The notes beneath the pieces are model-generated. The model was given only the letters and a program-made list of their open reading frames with translations, had not been told where the DNA came from and did no database searches. Position numbers and translations under genes: made by a program. Shown one piece after another: positions 39,987-47,296 of a stretch of 50,796 nt of DNA. Source of the DNA: a virus. Each line of letters starts with the position of its first letter. Within the stretch, counting starts at the first letter, position 1. The DNA lies in IMG/VR virus record IMGVR_UViG_3300005511_000879, positions 1-50,796 of that record, one strand, 5' to 3'.

Positions 39987-40354
39987 AAGCCTCCGGCCTC
40001 TTCTTTCTTTGCGGGCGGCCAAGCCCTGCGCACGCGATCTCGCCCGCCGGCGGCGACACCCTTGTCTGGATGTTGCCGCTGGTGGAGCGCACGAAGCGCG
40101 GCGTGCAGAAGGTCACTGCCTATTGGCCCGGGTCCGATGCCGCCCTGTTCGTGCAGATCCACGAGGCGCGGCTCAAGCCGGGCCAGGCGCTGAACCTCGA
40201 ATTTGACCGCGTGCGCCCCGTGCTGAACGAGCTGACGGCCACCGTCACCAGCTGCGCGCTCGCCCCCGATCGATGGCCGAAGACCGAGGTCGATCCCACC
40301 GCCGCTCCCCAATCCGCAACCACCGCAGCGCCTGGCTGCACGAGCAATTCATGA
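39983..40354 (+). CDS. hypothetical early protein
   Basis: 123 residues; beta-rich centre (DTLVWMLPLVERTKRGVQKVTAYWPGSDAALF, ALNLEFDRVRPVLNELTATVTSCALAP) and a low-complexity end. ATG overlaps the upstream stop. The strand pattern could fit an OB-fold, but no diagnostic motif is present. Confidence 0.6.
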   Translation: MKASGLFFLCGRPSPAHAISPAGGDTLVWMLPLVERTKRGVQKVTAYWPGSDAALFVQIHEARLKPGQALNLEFDRVRPVLNELTATVTSCALAPDRWPKTEVDPTAAPQSATTAAPGCTSNS

Positions 40355-41052
40355 AGAAACACATCATCGGCCTTACGGGCCTCGCAGGCGTTGGCAAAGA
40401 CACCGTCGCCGATCTGCTGATCACGCACTGCGGTTTCCGCAAGCTGGCCTTCGCCGACGCACTGCGCGTAGAAGTCGCCGAGGGTTTCGGCATCGACATT
40501 CGGTTGCTGACCGACCCTGCGACGAAGAACGAGCCGACCGACGCGCTCGCACTTAGCAAGTGCACGCATCGGCCCTTCCTCTATGCCGTGATCGCCACGC
40601 TCGCGGTCCGGGGCGACGCGCCGAAGACTGCCGCCGAATGGGCCATCTTCCTGGCGGCACCTCGATCACCGCGGCAGATCATGCAGTGGTGGGCCACGGA
40701 GTACCGCCGCACTGAAGACCCACGCTACTGGACACGGCAACTGTTGCAACGCGTCGTGGATTACCAGCGCGACGGCGCGATGCGCCTCATCGTGACCGAT
40801 TGCCGCTTCGCCAATGAAGTCGACACGCTGTATGCCATGGGAGGCCTACTCTGGCAGGTGACGCGCCCCGGCGTGAATCCCGATACGACCCCGGAAGGCA
40901 AGCATGTCAGCGCCACGGATGGCTCGCATTTCAAGCCCAGCATCGTCATTGCGAACGCGTACGACATCCGGCACCTGCAGCAGTTGGTCCTGAGCGATTT
41001 CTTCGCCCTGGAGACTGGCATCCCCTCCGCGAAAGTGACGGTGGCCGAATGA
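40351..41052 (+). CDS. deoxynucleoside monophosphate kinase, T4 gp1-like
   Basis: 233 residues. The P-loop GLTGLAGVGKDTVADLL (8-24), the FADALR segment and the SPRQIMQWWATEYRR motif identify a phage dNMP kinase, which phosphorylates dNMPs (in some phages modified ones) for DNA synthesis. Its first codon overlaps the upstream stop and its end overlaps the next gene. Length and motifs look intact. Confidence 0.85.
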   Translation: MKKHIIGLTGLAGVGKDTVADLLITHCGFRKLAFADALRVEVAEGFGIDIRLLTDPATKNEPTDALALSKCTHRPFLYAVIATLAVRGDAPKTAAEWAIFLAAPRSPRQIMQWWATEYRRTEDPRYWTRQLLQRVVDYQRDGAMRLIVTDCRFANEVDTLYAMGGLLWQVTRPGVNPDTTPEGKHVSATDGSHFKPSIVIANAYDIRHLQQLVLSDFFALETGIPSAKVTVAE

Positions 41053-41675
41053 ACTCGCCCCTCCAACACGCCCACGAGGCCGCGGTGGAAGAAGAGAAGG
41101 CGCCGGTCATCTGCACCGTCGCCGGCCCCCGTCAGCCCTTCTCCCCGGAAAGCTACAGCGGCGCCGAGCTGCAGGCCACGTGCCTTCGGCCAGGCGCCTA
41201 CAACGCGTTTGCGCTGCCGAGCCTGTTCAACGGGGCCAGGCGCACGCCGCCGCAGGCGGCGCTCGCCAACAGTGCCGTCCACACGTCGGGACGAACCAAG
41301 CCGGCCTACCTGCCGCGCGCCGGGAGCATTCCCGCGCTTCTGCTTGCCCACCTGCAGGCCAATGGCGGACACATGACCTATTCCGAGGTCGCGCGCCGCT
41401 TCGGCATGCCGCCCAGCAGCACCACGGCCGTCTTCAAGAAGACTCTCGAGGAAGGCCTTTTGCTGCGCATCGTGGTCGAAGGCCGCGCCGCCTTCGCGCT
41501 GCCCGGCTACGTGCCGCCGCCGGCGCCGCCCCGCCCGTCGAAAGAGTTCCTGGCCAGGCAAGCCAAGTTGACGAAGCGCCTGGCCGAGGTCGCCCTGCTG
41601 CAGCAGGAACTGCGAGATCTCCAGGCCCTTGAGCCGGCGCAAGCCGCCGTCTCCCATCAACCGAGCATGTCATGA
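41049..41675 (+). CDS. winged-helix DNA-binding-like protein
   Basis: 208 residues. A winged-helix region (about 92-155) contains GSIPALLLAHLQANGGHMTYSEVARRFGMPPSSTTAVFKKTLEEGLLLRIVVEGRAAFALPGY. A coiled helix follows (ARQAKLTKRLAEVALLQQELRDLQAL). The N-terminal third is unstructured-looking. Probably a phage regulator or replication accessory factor acting early. Confidence 0.7.
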   Translation: MNSPLQHAHEAAVEEEKAPVICTVAGPRQPFSPESYSGAELQATCLRPGAYNAFALPSLFNGARRTPPQAALANSAVHTSGRTKPAYLPRAGSIPALLLAHLQANGGHMTYSEVARRFGMPPSSTTAVFKKTLEEGLLLRIVVEGRAAFALPGYVPPPAPPRPSKEFLARQAKLTKRLAEVALLQQELRDLQALEPAQAAVSHQPSMS

Positions 41676-43849
41676 CCAAACCCGCCACCCACAAGACCTG
41701 TCACGGCGTGCTCCTGCCGCTTGACGCCTTCGCCGCCAACAAGGCCAATCCGGACGGCCTGCAGCGCTACTGCCGCGATTGCCAGAAGGCCCACCGCGCC
41801 GACTGGACAAAGCGCAACGCCGAGAAGATCGCCGCGTACAACGCAAAGCGCCGCGGCGGCGACGCGGCGGCAACCGCCGACGTCGACGCCAAGGCCTCCG
41901 TGCCTTCAAAGGCACTGCGCAAGTCCGGCGTGAAGGGGGATGTGCAAGCCACGGAGCCGGCGCCCACCGGCCTGGCCGAGCTACCCCACTCCGCCATCGT
42001 CCCCAGCCTGACGAACCCGCGCAAGCACTTCGACCATGCCTTCATCACGGAGCTGGCCGAAAGCATCAAGGCGCAGGGCGTGGCGCAGCCGATCTTGGTG
42101 CGCCCGCTGCCGGGCTCGCGCATGGCGGAGACGTACTCCGACCGGCGCGCCGATGCCCCGCGCCCGACGCACGAGATCGTGGCCGGCGAGCAGCGCTGGC
42201 GCGCTTGCGCCCTGGCCGGCGTGCGCATGGTGCCGGCGCTGATTCGCCGCCTGACCGATGCCGAAATGCTGCAGCTGCAACTGGTGGAGAACCTCAAGCG
42301 GCGCGATCTGCATCCGATGGAAGAAGCCGAGGGCTACGAGCGCCTGCGCGACACGCTGGGCATGTCGGCCGAAGACATTGCCGACCGCATCGGCAAGGGC
42401 CGCTCCTATGTCTACAAGAGACTGGCGCTGCTCAACCTCGAGCCCGAGGCGCGGGAGGCCTTCTACGAGGGCAAGCTGACCCGGTCGACGGCCGAACTGG
42501 TGGCAATGCGCCAGCCGAACCTGCAGCTGCAGGTGCTCAAGGAAATCACCGCGCCGGACTTCCACGGCGAGCCGATGAGTTTCCGCAAGGCCAAGGCCCA
42601 CGTCGACGAGCGCTACATGCTGCGGCTCGGCAGCGCCCCGTTCAAGATCACCGACGAGACATTGGTGCCTGAAGCCGGCAGCTGCCGCACGTGCCCGAAG
42701 CGCTCGGGCGCCAACCCCGAGCTGTTCGACGACGTGGCGCACGCGGACACCTGCACCGACCCCACGTGCTTCGCCGGCAAGAAGGAAGCGCACTACGTGC
42801 GGATCCGCGCCGCGGCGGAGGCCAAGGGGCAGACGGTCATCACGGGCCGCGAAGCCAAGGAAATCATGCCCGACAGCAACACGCTGCGCGGCTACACCAA
42901 GGTCGACGATCACCAGGCGCTCGGCGGCCAGATGAAGACCCTGCGCAAGGTGCTCGGCAAGGACATGCCGACGCCCACGCTGATCGAAGACCCGAAGACG
43001 CACGAGCTGGTCGAAGTGCTGCCCACGGCCCAGGTCGGCAAGCTGCTCAAGGAACAGGGCATCACCAAAGCGCCCACGGTCGAGACTAGCGAGGCGGCGG
43101 CACAGCGCCAGGGCGTGGAGACCTTCGAACAGATCTGGCGCAAACAGGCGGTCGAGCGGATCGACGAAGCGCTCGCGGCCGACCTGGGCGAAGGCTTCAG
43201 CGCACCGGTGCAGCGCCTTGTGGCCCACCTGCTGGTCGACGGCCTCGGCACCGAAGAACGGCAACACGTGTGCGCCCTGCTGAAGCTCGGCAAGGTCGCC
43301 CCGCGCGAGGCCATCGAGAGCCACATCGACACCTGTCCCGAGGGTGAATGCGAGCGCGTGCTGATGCTGCTGCTGGTACAGCACGACATGCGCACGCTGG
43401 TCGACGGCGCAACCGGCAAGGCCACCGCCTCTGCGCGCATCGAGGCCGTGGCCAAGGACTTCAACATCGACGTGGCCGCCATCAAGGCCGGCGTGAAGGC
43501 CGCCATGAAGAAGGCGGCCAGCGAGAAGAAGGTCGAGAGCGCCGCCGCTGCGGTGCGCGCCCAGGCTGCGCCCGCCAAGCCCGCGCGCAAGCCGAAGCCC
43601 AGCGCGGCCGAGGCCACCGCCGAGATCGCCAAGCAGATGCAGGCAGCGGCCAACCCCAACGCCTTCACGGTCGGGCAGCGCGTGCAGCTGAAGACCGACC
43701 TGCGCAAAGGCGTCGATGTGTTCAACACGCACGGCGTCGAAGCCGAAGTGCTGCGCCCCCAAGGCGACCGCGCCTGGGAAGTACGGCCCGACACCCTTTC
43801 CTTCTCCCTGATTGCTGACTACACCGAAATGGAGGCTATCCAGCCATGA
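41672..43849 (+). CDS. large ParB-like protein with N-terminal zinc ribbon
   Basis: 725 residues. N-terminal CHGVLLPLDAFAANKANPDGLQRYCRDCQKAHR is a Cys4-type zinc ribbon as in HNH-associated proteins. Residues about 108-330 are a ParB/KorB core: NPRKHFD, HEIVAGEQRWRACALAGV (box II-like, CTP-binding), ENLKRRDLHPMEEAEGY, and an HTH (SAEDIADRIGKGRSYVYKRLALLNL). Cys pairs near 350-385 may bind another metal. The C-terminal 60 residues look like a small beta-barrel. No ParA is present, so plasmid-like partition is unlikely; control of DNA or a nuclease role is possible. Confidence 0.85.
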   Translation: MTKPATHKTCHGVLLPLDAFAANKANPDGLQRYCRDCQKAHRADWTKRNAEKIAAYNAKRRGGDAAATADVDAKASVPSKALRKSGVKGDVQATEPAPTGLAELPHSAIVPSLTNPRKHFDHAFITELAESIKAQGVAQPILVRPLPGSRMAETYSDRRADAPRPTHEIVAGEQRWRACALAGVRMVPALIRRLTDAEMLQLQLVENLKRRDLHPMEEAEGYERLRDTLGMSAEDIADRIGKGRSYVYKRLALLNLEPEAREAFYEGKLTRSTAELVAMRQPNLQLQVLKEITAPDFHGEPMSFRKAKAHVDERYMLRLGSAPFKITDETLVPEAGSCRTCPKRSGANPELFDDVAHADTCTDPTCFAGKKEAHYVRIRAAAEAKGQTVITGREAKEIMPDSNTLRGYTKVDDHQALGGQMKTLRKVLGKDMPTPTLIEDPKTHELVEVLPTAQVGKLLKEQGITKAPTVETSEAAAQRQGVETFEQIWRKQAVERIDEALAADLGEGFSAPVQRLVAHLLVDGLGTEERQHVCALLKLGKVAPREAIESHIDTCPEGECERVLMLLLVQHDMRTLVDGATGKATASARIEAVAKDFNIDVAAIKAGVKAAMKKAASEKKVESAAAAVRAQAAPAKPARKPKPSAAEATAEIAKQMQAAANPNAFTVGQRVQLKTDLRKGVDVFNTHGVEAEVLRPQGDRAWEVRPDTLSFSLIADYTEMEAIQP

Positions 43850-44538
43850 CCACGCCCAACTTCATCTATCTGACCGGCGAGGCGCAGCCACTGAAGCTGG
43901 GCGCAGAGGACCGCCGCTTCTTCGCGATCCCTCAGAAATTCCACGAAGACGCTCTGGACGCCGGCATTGCTGCGTGGTTCGGCGTGAACAAGGTCGAAGC
44001 CGAGAGGAACTTCATTCGCAGCAGGATGGGGGCGGCCGTTGCCGCGGTGCTCAGTGCGAGCATGCCCTGCGGCCACTCGTGCCGCCATGACAGCAAGTTC
44101 GGATTCATCCCCGAAGCGGGATGCCCTGTGCATGACGCCGCCGCACCAGCGGAGGTACCGGCCAGCGAACCCGAACAGTGCTTCAGCACGGACGGGGAAG
44201 AGTTCCGCTACACCGAGCTGCACGAAGCGCTCGACTCTATCGATGGCGATGAAGGCCTGACCGAAGGGCGCGTCATCCACCAGGCGGATGCCGTCCGTCA
44301 AGCCGCCAGCCACTACTTCAGCGTCGACAGCCTGCTCGAAGACATCGGCGAGCGCGCCTACGAAGACGTGGGCGAGTACGCCGACACCTTCCCTGATCTC
44401 GCGAAGCCGAAGGTAGCGGAGCTGCAGGCCATGGTCGCGGCATGGCTCGACGCCAACGTCGACATCAGCTTCTACTCCGTGCGCAACGTGCGCGAGATCA
44501 CCGTGACGGCCGACATGATCAAGGAGCGCCAGTCATGA
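43846..44538 (+). CDS. hypothetical early protein
   Basis: 230 residues, acidic. The centre contains CGHSCRHDSKFGFIPEAGCPVH, a possible metal site (Cys3His2-like), and the C-terminal half is helical (KPKVAELQAMVAAWLDANVDISFYSVRNVREITVTADM). ATG overlaps the ParB-like stop. No family recognised. Confidence 0.65.
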   Translation: MTTPNFIYLTGEAQPLKLGAEDRRFFAIPQKFHEDALDAGIAAWFGVNKVEAERNFIRSRMGAAVAAVLSASMPCGHSCRHDSKFGFIPEAGCPVHDAAAPAEVPASEPEQCFSTDGEEFRYTELHEALDSIDGDEGLTEGRVIHQADAVRQAASHYFSVDSLLEDIGERAYEDVGEYADTFPDLAKPKVAELQAMVAAWLDANVDISFYSVRNVREITVTADMIKERQS

Positions 44539-45407
44539 ACGCCATCATCAACCTGGCGCAGCCCATCACCGCCCTGTTCACCCCCCTGCCGGAGTTCGTG
44601 AGCACCGCCCAGCTGTTAGCCGCGCTCGGCATCGAGCGAGTGGATTACCGCACCGCTATGCACATTCGCGATTGGATGGAGCAGCAATCCTGGCGCCCAA
44701 CCATCCAGCGCGTCAACGGCATTCATGTGCGCGGCTACGCGAGGCCGGCCACCCCGATTGACGACGCCAGCAACCTGCGTGCCCTCATCGTGCAATACGG
44801 CAATGCGTCATATCGGCACGACGCGGGATCCGCCTCTGCGCTGGGCAAGAAGATCAACGCACTGGTCGATTCCAGGGCAGCCGCATCAGCAGCCGCGCAG
44901 CCTGGCGAACCGCAGGATGGCGACCGCCTGAAGTGGCTGATCGACACCATGTCGTGCGAAGCGCTGATCGAGGTCGGGATCTTCCCGTTCGTCATGTCCT
45001 CCGACAGTGACTGGCGAGTGCTGGTCGACGACGCCATGCGAGCGCATGCGAAGCGCTCGCAGGATGGCACGTGCAGGACCATGACCAGCAAGGCGCTGAA
45101 AGCTGTCATCGCGGAACGCCTGCGCCAGCAGTCCGACGAAGGCTGGACCCCGGAGCACGACGACGAGCACGTCAATGACGAACTCGCCGCCATGGCCGCC
45201 TACTACGCCATGCCCGTTGGCGCCCGCGACTGGCCGGCCTCGGAAACCGGCTACGGCGCGACCTTCGGCGAGGCCATCCGCCCCGAGGGCTGGCAAGCCA
45301 AGGAGAGCGATCGGTGGGATGAACTGGTCAAGGCCGGCGCGCTGGTGTTGAGCGAGCTGGAGCGCCTCGAGCGCGCCGATGCTGTCTTGACGGGCGGTGC
45401 GGCATGA
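44535..45407 (+). CDS. two-part hypothetical early protein
   Basis: 290 residues. The N-terminal half (MNAIINLAQPITALFTPLPEFVSTAQLLAALGIERVDYRTAMHIRDWM) includes a small DNA-binding-like helix pair. The C-terminal 105 residues (MTSKALKAVIAERLRQQSDEGWTPEHDDEHVNDELAAMAAYYAMP) match a widespread phage module with the signature ER-RQ---EGWTPEHDD, which exists as a separate gene in other phages. It appears to be a fusion. The module's function is not established. Confidence 0.7.
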   Translation: MNAIINLAQPITALFTPLPEFVSTAQLLAALGIERVDYRTAMHIRDWMEQQSWRPTIQRVNGIHVRGYARPATPIDDASNLRALIVQYGNASYRHDAGSASALGKKINALVDSRAAASAAAQPGEPQDGDRLKWLIDTMSCEALIEVGIFPFVMSSDSDWRVLVDDAMRAHAKRSQDGTCRTMTSKALKAVIAERLRQQSDEGWTPEHDDEHVNDELAAMAAYYAMPVGARDWPASETGYGATFGEAIRPEGWQAKESDRWDELVKAGALVLSELERLERADAVLTGGAA

Positions 45408-47296
45408 ACACGGTTGAGATCAGGCACTTTCATGCGTTCGTGGGCCTGGGCGGCGGCGCACGCGGCTTCAACAAGGCCAATCCACGCGTTGGCAACACGC
45501 AGGCGAAGTTCCGCTGCATCGGCGGCATCGATGTCGACGCGGCGGCCATCCGCGACTTCAACCGGCTCGCCGGTGTCCAGGGCACGGTGCTGGATCTCTT
45601 CGATCGCAGCCAGTACGAGGCGTTTCACGGCCGCACGCCGCCGGCCGCATGGGTCGAGGCCACGGTGGCCGACGTGCACCGCGCGGCCGGCCACGAGCGT
45701 CCGCACATCATCTTTCTCTCGGCTCCGTGCAAGGGCTTCAGCGGCCTGCTGTCCGAAGGCAAGAGCAAGACCGACAAGTACCAGGCGCTCAACCGGCTCA
45801 CGCTGCGCGGCGTGTGGCTGATGCTCGAGGCCTGGAAAGACGATCCGGTCGAAATGATCCTGTTCGAGAACGTGCCGCGCATCGCCACGCGCGGCCGGCA
45901 CCTGCTCGACCAGATCACCGGCCTGCTGCGCAGCTACGGCTACGCAGTGGCCGAGACGACGCACGACTGCGGCGAGATCGGTGGCCTGGCCCAAAGTCGC
46001 AAGCGCTTCCTGCTGGTGGCGCGCCACATCGAGAAGGTGCCGCCCTTCCTGTACGAGCCCGAGAAGCGCCCCCTGCGTGCGGTGGGCGACGTGCTGGGCA
46101 AGATGCTGATGCCGGGCGACATGCGCGCAGGCCCGATGCACCGCATCCCCGCGCTGCAATGGAAGACCTGGGTGCGTCTGGCCTTCGTCGAGGCCGGCAG
46201 CGACTGGCGCAGCCTGAACAAGCTGGCTGTGGAGAACGGGCACCTGCGCGACTACCTGATCGTTCCTGAGATGCATGGCGGTGCCCTCGGAGTGCGAGAG
46301 TGGTCGAAGCCGTCAGGCGTGGTTGCGGGCCGCAGCTTCCCACTGAACGGCGCGTTCTCGGTCGCTGACCCGCGTCAGCAGCTCTATGCAGCCGGCTACG
46401 GCGTCACGTCCTGGGATGCGACCAGCGGCGCCGTAGCGGGAGAGTCGCTGCCGTCGAATGGCAAGTTCGCGGTGGCTGATCCGCGCGCGCCTGCGGCCGC
46501 GCTGCAGTACCAGCAGTACGGCGTGCTGGACTGGGCCGAGCCGATGGGCGCGGTGATCGGCGTGAAGTCGCCTGGCCAAGGCACGTTCAGCGTGGCGGAC
46601 CCGCGCGCCAGCGGCGTGCGCCACAACAACGTGTTCCGCGTGGTGCCGTGGGACAAGCCGGGCACGACGGTCACAGCCGGCACCGGCCCATCCGCCGGCG
46701 GCACCGCGGTAGCAGATCCTCGCCAGCCCGGCCTCGCGTTCAGCAAGTACTCGGTGACGGCGTTCGACGAAGCGGCCGGCACGGTCATCAGCGGTAGCAC
46801 CACCGGCCAGGGCGCATTCGCCGTGGCAGACCCGCGCAGCGGCATCCAGCGCGGCAAGGGCGACAACTACCTGACGGCCGGTCACTACGGCGTGATGCCG
46901 TGGACCGAGCCCGCCGGCGCCGTGAGCGCGGCAGCCGGCCACGACAACGGCCGGTGGAGCGTCGCAGATCCGCGCATGCCTGCCGCGGCCGACAAGGTGG
47001 TGTGCCGCATCCAGGCGCTCGACGGCACCTGGCACCGCCCTTTCACCACGCTGGAACTGGCAGCTCTGCAATCGCTGTTCGATCCGGAGGAACGCTTCGA
47101 GCTGGACGGGTTGAGCGATCAGGCATGGCGCGAGCGTATCGGCAACGCCGTGCCCAGCGACGCCGCCTGCGCAATCGCGGGCGTGATGGGCACCACGCTG
47201 CTGTTGGCCTGGAGCGGCGAGACGTTCATGCTGTCCGCGCAGCCGATCTGGGTGCGCGACGTGGCGATGGCTTTGGCCGTCCAGGGAGGCATCTGA
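45404..47296 (+). CDS. cytosine-C5 DNA methyltransferase with VADPR repeats
   Basis: 630 residues. Motif I FVGLGGGARGF (12-22), motif IV SAPCKGFSG with the nucleophile Cys109, motif VI FENV (154-157), motif VIII QSRKRFLLVA (197-206) and motif X RIGNAVPSDAA are all present, so a C5 methyltransferase is likely active. Between motifs VIII and X, where target recognition occurs, are six repeats of 37-46 residues ending in VADPR. It overlaps its upstream neighbour by four bases. It could protect phage DNA from host restriction. No cognate nuclease is seen. Confidence 0.9.
   Translation: MNTVEIRHFHAFVGLGGGARGFNKANPRVGNTQAKFRCIGGIDVDAAAIRDFNRLAGVQGTVLDLFDRSQYEAFHGRTPPAAWVEATVADVHRAAGHERPHIIFLSAPCKGFSGLLSEGKSKTDKYQALNRLTLRGVWLMLEAWKDDPVEMILFENVPRIATRGRHLLDQITGLLRSYGYAVAETTHDCGEIGGLAQSRKRFLLVARHIEKVPPFLYEPEKRPLRAVGDVLGKMLMPGDMRAGPMHRIPALQWKTWVRLAFVEAGSDWRSLNKLAVENGHLRDYLIVPEMHGGALGVREWSKPSGVVAGRSFPLNGAFSVADPRQQLYAAGYGVTSWDATSGAVAGESLPSNGKFAVADPRAPAAALQYQQYGVLDWAEPMGAVIGVKSPGQGTFSVADPRASGVRHNNVFRVVPWDKPGTTVTAGTGPSAGGTAVADPRQPGLAFSKYSVTAFDEAAGTVISGSTTGQGAFAVADPRSGIQRGKGDNYLTAGHYGVMPWTEPAGAVSAAAGHDNGRWSVADPRMPAAADKVVCRIQALDGTWHRPFTTLELAALQSLFDPEERFELDGLSDQAWRERIGNAVPSDAACAIAGVMGTTLLLAWSGETFMLSAQPIWVRDVAMALAVQGGI
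46301..46975 (+). repeat. six VADPR repeats inside methyltransferase
   Basis: Six repeats with spacings of 37, 40, 39, 38 and 46 residues, pattern W--P-GAV-G-S---G-F-VADPR. The DNA repeats are diverged, so the protein pattern is maintained by selection. They fill the target-recognition region. Confidence 0.85.

Follow-up and report, generated by a model that had tools for sequence, protein, structure and literature searches.

Arrays of candidate target-recognition modules in a family of predicted phage C5-cytosine DNA methyltransferases

The subject of this analysis is a gene at positions 45404–47296 of IMG/VR virus record IMGVR_UViG_3300005511_000879, the 50,796 nucleotides of which are referred to here as the window, and the family of phage proteins to which its product belongs. 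The window protein is a predicted C5-cytosine DNA methyltransferase in which six repeats, each closed by the residues VADPR, lie at the position of the target-recognition domain. In our judgement, with a probability of roughly 0.75, the members of this family are orphan multispecific C5-methyltransferases which protect phage DNA and whose internal repeats each serve as a single, exchangeable unit of recognition. This suggests that one enzyme marks many DNA sequences and so shields the phage from many host restriction enzymes.

By its sequence the window protein is a member of the C5-cytosine DNA methyltransferases (PF00145, C-5 cytosine-specific DNA methylase; E 8.8e-12, 45.5 bits against a gathering cut-off of 22), and methyl transfer is predicted. 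It also matches PHROG 116 (DNA methyltransferase, E 1.5e-50) and, through its N-terminal part, PHROG 32684 (unknown function, E 2.1e-114). Motifs I, IV (PC), VI (ENV), VIII (QxRxR), IX and X (GNxVP) are all present and in the correct order. They read F12-x-GLGGGARGF...GGIDVD in the motif I/II region, APCKGFSG (P108, C109) for motif IV, FENVPR (E155, N156, V157) for motif VI, QSRKRFLLVA (197–206; Q197–R201) for motif VIII, RPFTTLELAALQS (545–557) for motif IX and RIGNAVP (578–584) for motif X. Residues P108, C109, E155, N156, V157, R199, R201, G580, N581, V583 and P584 do not vary among 60 full-length relatives, and the claim of an earlier sequence-only reading of this DNA, that all catalytic motifs are kept, is thereby borne out. 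The fold was compared with VIA-align on the model of a relative, L047, rather than on the window protein, and the comparison covers the catalytic part only, which has the C5-methyltransferase fold: it aligns with M.HaeIII (Z 23.1, root-mean-square deviation 3.1, 270 residues), M.HhaI (Z 22.3, 3.2, 263 residues) and DNMT1 (Z 24.0, 5.4, 319 residues). A search of the Protein Data Bank with the family alignment gave DNMT1 as the best match (E 0.0005, catalytic part), and the same search with the window protein gave nothing relevant, its two low-complexity matches having E values of 0.11 and 0.3.

The gene is divided as follows, the repeat types and TL pairs being those defined further below.

45404–47296, + strand: C5-cytosine DNA methyltransferase, whole gene, 630 amino acids, ATG start.
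45404–46027, + strand: catalytic part, residues 1–208, motifs I–VIII, PC nucleophile at 108–109; placed by invariant columns and the fold of relative L047.
46028–46264, + strand: conserved linker, residues 209–287, from motif VIII to repeat 1; placed by alignment.
46265–46375, + strand: repeat 1, residues 288–324, type m01 (the usual first-slot type), TL pair 306–307 (VV).
46376–46486, + strand: repeat 2, residues 325–361, type m08, TL pair 343–344 (AV).
46487–46606, + strand: repeat 3, residues 362–401, type m03, TL pair 383–384 (AV).
46607–46723, + strand: repeat 4, residues 402–440, type m04 (m05 in relative L002), TL pair 422–423 (TV).
46724–46837, + strand: repeat 5, residues 441–478, type m02, TL pair 460–461 (TV).
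46838–46975, + strand: repeat 6, residues 479–524, type m00 (the constant last-slot type), TL pair 506–507 (AV).
46976–47293, + strand: C-terminal part, residues 525–630, motifs IX (545–557) and X (578–584); placed by sequence and invariant columns.

Relatives were collected from four protein-alignment scans of virus contigs, each contributing its best 80 of more than 500 matches, and from loci found earlier. Of the resulting 328 loci, two SPbeta stretches, one truncated locus without a usable protein (L026) and 125 identical proteins were left out, and nine of the 200 distinct proteins that remained are incomplete, which leaves 191 complete proteins with 1055 repeats. The type-information, half-type, half-pairing and depletion tests and the TL profile described below used 116 representatives at 95% backbone identity, and the robustness of non-redundancy to the clustering cut was tested on the 115 representatives that have internal repeats. 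Arrays of five (72 proteins) and six repeats (76) predominate among the 191; four are found in 23 proteins, seven in eight, eight in six, and nine and ten in two each, while single proteins have two and three. The protein with two, L047 (477 amino acids), is a natural variant that has only the first and last repeats, the whole internal array being absent and the frame kept; in another relative (L049) the first repeat is shortened to 13 residues.

In the window protein the stretch between motifs VIII and IX consists of the linker (residues 209–287) and then the six repeats (288–524), with lengths of 37, 37, 40, 39, 38 and 46 residues. All six were recovered by a repeat profile for which no relatives were used other than the 174 of 191 with a backbone identity below 80%; i-Evalues ran from 1.5e-15 to 2.6e-21 and scores from 43 to 62 bits, where 200 shuffled versions of the protein reached 5.2 bits at most. 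Six repeats of 37–46 residues at the position of the recognition domain, as the sequence-only reading had described them, are thus confirmed from distant relatives. Repeat finding at the DNA level returned partial pieces only, and the copies are divergent, so that the array stems neither from recent tandem duplication nor from an assembly artefact.

Average-linkage clustering over 41 profile columns sorts the repeats into about 51 types, 27 of which are present in at least three proteins. The ends of the array are nearly constant: m00 closes it in 186 of 191 proteins, and the main first-slot type, m01, opens it in 153 of 191; these two repeats may be structural, or may bear one fixed specificity. 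Internal types move between slots (m02 is found in slots 2–7 and 9), and a single slot is contested by several types. The module string of the window protein is m01-m08-m03-m04-m02-m00. A protein 91% identical to it (L002) has m05 instead of m04 in slot 4, another (L003) has seven repeats, and a third (L004) agrees with it in type only at slot 5 and the last slot. As judged by these sequence comparisons, the window protein would be made up of four swappable internal modules and two constant end modules, and not of six equal units. The proposal that its repeats are recognition units like those of multispecific phage methyltransferases finds good support in the comparative evidence.

The 191 proteins have 97 distinct module strings, and strings differ even between closely similar backbones: in 2 of 33 pairs at 99% identity or more, in 225 of 594 at 97–99% and in 345 of 609 at 95–97%, counts in which the pairs are not independent of one another. 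Between backbones less than 80% identical, one of 7904 comparisons of internal repeats of the same type reached 90% nucleotide identity or more, which argues that the types are old and kept by selection and that the visible exchange takes place among close relatives.

Within a protein, internal types are not used twice. None of the 191 proteins has two internal repeats of one type, where slot-preserving shuffles give a mean of 54 such proteins and a minimum of 38; with the end slots included, seven of 191 have one type twice. The result holds over clustering cuts of 0.30–0.48 (no duplicate internal type in any of 115 proteins), and at the looser cuts of 0.55 and 0.60 duplicates appear in 14 and 16 of 115 (shuffle means 51 and 58), the deficit being gone at 0.65–0.70. 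The highest pairwise identity between internal repeats of the same protein is 58% among these 115. Young duplicates are usual in tandem arrays, and their absence here suggests that nothing is gained by having a module twice, as if each had its own job. The order of types is mostly kept, 535 of 595 co-occurrences following the majority order and 44 of 203 type pairs occurring in both orders.

What links these repeats to recognition domains is the TL motif. According to excerpts of PMC2413257, the recognition domains of C5-methyltransferases share this spaced consensus 10–50 residues upstream of motif IX, its spacing is NNN-x10-TL-x3-CCC with DNA-contacting triplets on either side, and it served to define the recognition domains of multispecific enzymes. 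In the family consensus of the repeats a TL pair stands at columns 23–24, with an aromatic residue at column 12, proline at 20 and alanine at 21. A profile of 15 columns (12–26) of the internal repeats, with equal weight given to each type, was scanned over 20 ordinary C5-methyltransferases, 19 of them from family-level relatives of a Variovorax genome (G001) and one the SPbeta enzyme MtbP. Its top site fell 8–60 residues upstream of motif IX in 12 of the 20 (P 1.7e-6 for an expected fraction of 0.136). Recognisable TL motifs such as PSTTIT, PAFTVV and PAFTVN are among these sites, and so is the second TL site of MtbP. With three near-copies of a fourth protein removed the count is 9 of 17, where column-shuffled profiles have a mean of 2.5 and one in 1000 reaches nine. 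Since the profile lands before motif IX in ordinary enzymes, the repeats can be equated with that portion of a recognition domain which is centred on the TL motif.

The residues that separate one type from another are placed on both sides of this motif. Type information reaches 1.66–2.29 bits in columns 6–11 and 1.64–2.48 bits in columns 27–32, and falls to 0.47–0.94 bit in the spacer (columns 16–22), the residues of which vary freely inside one type. The published contact triplets map to columns 10–12 (NNN) and 28–30 (CCC), so that the two peaks cover columns 10–11 of the former and all of the latter, the aromatic column 12 being lower (0.86 bit), and the type-defining residues correspond to DNA-contact positions of M.HhaI and M.HaeIII. 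To avoid circularity, types were also defined from one half of the repeat only. N-half types explain 61–68% of the variation at columns 27–32 and 6–21% at spacer columns 16 and 18–21, and C-half types explain 69% at column 11 and 2–15% in the spacer columns just named. A recognition unit would be expected to show just this pattern, in which two blocks stay coupled although the stretch between them varies freely, and descent alone would hardly explain it. Recombination of the half-blocks is seen too: 7 of 17 N-half types have at least two C-half partners, and at least two N-half partners are found for 9 of 13 C-half types.

Taken as a mechanism, the array of modules of about 40 residues would replace the single target-recognition domain on one catalytic domain, each module having the plan aromatic residue, some ten variable residues, T/A-V, specificity loop and VADPR, with one TL motif. 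Bases would be touched by the block ahead of the TL pair and by the loop that follows the pair, and the spacer between them would be filler. A single module would occupy the DNA cleft at any time, so that the union of several short targets would be methylated, and the methylation pattern of a phage lineage could shift as modules are lost, gained or replaced. At the two ends, the constant modules would probably anchor the array or carry a common fixed specificity, and the role of the whole would be to guard phage or prophage DNA against several host restriction systems. A more ambitious proposal, which we hold tentatively and at somewhat below even chances, is that the family forms a natural combinatorial library with a two-part code, in which the 5' portion of the target is read by the block ahead of the TL pair and the 3' portion by the loop that follows, half-modules are recombined, and up to ten modules give up to ten targets per enzyme. 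Ten targets would, to our knowledge, exceed those of any multispecific methyltransferase.

A number of results weigh against the proposed recognition array. The structure prediction of the repeat region suggested by the sequence-only reading gave the catalytic part of L047 as a C5-methyltransferase fold and left the repeats with low confidence: AlphaFold2 placed residues 245–546 of the window protein (with 60 relatives) and residues 251–389 of the two-repeat L047 at a predicted local distance difference test score (pLDDT) below 50, so that the models do not position the array in the DNA cleft. The link between the repeats and ordinary TL motifs is visible with the type-weighted profile only. 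The published TL consensus applied to the window protein alone has 9 positions scoring at least 4 against a shuffle mean of 7.6, no more than chance would give, and a hidden Markov model of the repeat scores at best 3.5 bits over 18 ordinary methyltransferases, where unrelated open reading frames reach 6.3 bits. Compared by eye, the triplets before and after the TL pair gave no match to the published four-base families. Recent module transfer between distant phages was not found, the conserved order of types could account for part of the non-redundancy through orthologous or ordered slots, and no activity or target was found on record for any family member. Target depletion gives no firm lead: in 120 tests for a link between module presence and the frequency of four-base palindromes, over some 4.8 kb of flanking DNA per phage in 116 phages, the strongest result was for phages with m13 (14 of 116 representatives), in whose flanking DNA GGCC, relative to expectation, is about 19% rarer (z -4.25, uncorrected and with phage relatedness uncontrolled).

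Several other readings of the array must be set beside this one. It might be read as a whole, as a superhelix or solenoid lying on one long or composite site in the manner of a transcription activator-like effector, with the module string setting a single composite target. Regular repeat length, constant VADPR ends and a largely conserved type order would all suit such an arrangement, and the constant first and last modules resemble capping units. We nevertheless regard it as unlikely, because every module contains a TL motif of its own, and in known enzymes one such motif marks out a complete unit of recognition, because between two and ten modules (the ends alone in L047) are set on similar catalytic parts, and because conservation within types lies in two coupled flanks and not in one or two base-reading positions.

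Less probable again is that the internal repeats are structural filler or a protein-binding surface and that the enzyme owes a single specificity to its constant last, or first, repeat. Filler would be expected to duplicate freely, which is at odds with the lack of any internal type used twice and with the 58% ceiling on internal identity, and it leaves the conserved, coupled type blocks around a varying spacer unexplained; on its side are the near-invariant last repeat directly upstream of motif IX, the kept frame of L047 without any internal repeat and the failure of AlphaFold to resolve the repeats. That the recognition array has no catalytic use, the enzyme being inactive on cellular DNA or acting as a DNA-bound decoy or regulator, seems very improbable, given catalytic residues invariant in the 60 aligned full-length relatives and a spread of relatives over phages of Pseudomonas, Achromobacter, Marinobacter and Sinorhizobium and a Variovorax genome, even though no activity is known and the gene is truncated in Pseudomonas phage PA8.

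The nearest relatives of the window protein by identity are encoded on other virus contigs and in a Variovorax genome. Matching named phage records number 36, mostly of Pseudomonas phages, the others being of Achromobacter, Marinobacter and Sinorhizobium phages, and of 299 genomes drawn at family level from around the Variovorax host, 19 have a member of the family. In Pseudomonas phage PA8 (L026:2359-3519) the gene is shortened, with 54% of the query matched in two pieces and one VADPR left; Pseudomonas phage H66 has, besides the full gene, an open reading frame of 141 bases annotated as C5 methylase domain-like (L021:7093-7233), which is possibly a methyltransferase remnant. In the records inspected, members are annotated for example as 'DNA cytosine methyltransferase' or 'hypothetical protein' and nothing further. 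No description of the family or its repeats was found in the open-licence PMC literature, REBASE being outside the search, and the repeats are not touched on in the excerpts of PMC12707154, PMC6449724, PMC11200629, PMC3091744 and PMC11347163. This large phage methyltransferase family is thus apparently undescribed.

The window itself has genes for a lambda-type portal protein, a tape-measure protein, a ParB-like protein and a deoxynucleoside monophosphate kinase (Pfam and PHROG matches), which mark it as part of a tailed phage or prophage. Directly upstream of the methyltransferase gene lies an open reading frame of PHROG 28211 (unknown function; 44535–45407, + strand), and the 4-base overlap of the two suggests translational coupling. 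The kinase gene (40273–41052, + strand; PF21448 and PHROG 139) is located some 4.4 kb upstream of the methyltransferase gene; kinases of this kind occur alongside base modification in some phages. The ParB-like protein (41672–43849, + strand; 725 amino acids) has ParB_N and HTH_ParB domains and, over residues 10–68, a short N-terminal match to the endonuclease VII family (PHROG 1035). In the annotated stretches of relatives the neighbours of the methyltransferase gene vary from phage to phage, and in those inspected no annotated restriction endonuclease adjoining it was seen; the methyltransferase looks like an orphan. An annotated adenine-specific methyltransferase lies close to the C5 gene in PotUPM1 (L016:13-1347) and an S-adenosylmethionine-dependent methyltransferase in CF418P1 (L018:6606-7508), which suggests modification clusters in these two phages.

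If the proposed recognition array is correct, a much larger natural set of multispecific enzymes, with many module combinations, is now available from proteobacterial phages. It would make directly testable how the DNA target is encoded by the residues that flank the TL motif, and how a single active site serves many recognition domains in turn. Tools for sequence-specific methylation could draw exchangeable parts from the modules, and changes of module may indicate how phages could follow the restriction repertoire of their hosts.

The multispecific C5-methyltransferases known so far are those of a few Bacillus phages and M.BssHII, the Bacillus enzymes having recognition domains of near 38 residues and two to five known targets. 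The enzymes of SPbeta, SPR, phi3T and H2 and M.BssHII are likewise phage-encoded or phage-derived and have one catalytic domain with tandem TL-centred domains between motifs VIII and IX, those of SPbeta MtbP showing, by eye, two TL sites about 47 residues apart. Excerpts of the literature state that the tandem recognition domains of the Bacillus phage enzymes give multiple recognition sequences (PMC8936443) and that C5-methyltransferases of more than one specificity are encoded by some phages as a protection (PMC7653180). The window protein has no significant similarity to MtbP by BLASTP (best E 1.5), and membership in the SPbeta/SPR lineage is rejected on that ground. It would work like these enzymes, to which, as far as sequence comparison can tell, it has no detectable relationship beyond the common fold. 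Unlike them, the present family has a uniform VADPR-ended frame, constant end modules, two to ten modules and at least 27 recurrent types. M.HhaI and M.HaeIII have the catalytic fold, the motifs and the TL motif in common with the family, but have one domain and one specificity in place of an array. Neither PHROG 116 nor PHROG 32684, both matched by the window protein, says anything in its name or category of repeats or multiple specificities. In Type I HsdS and phase-variable Mod proteins, recognition modules are swapped on a constant enzyme; there the alternatives are single domains for each enzyme, whereas here many modules stand together in one polypeptide. In kind the family would be one of multi-recognition-domain C5-methyltransferases, but we know of no described member with a uniform repeat frame, constant ends, as many as ten modules and recurring types by the dozen.

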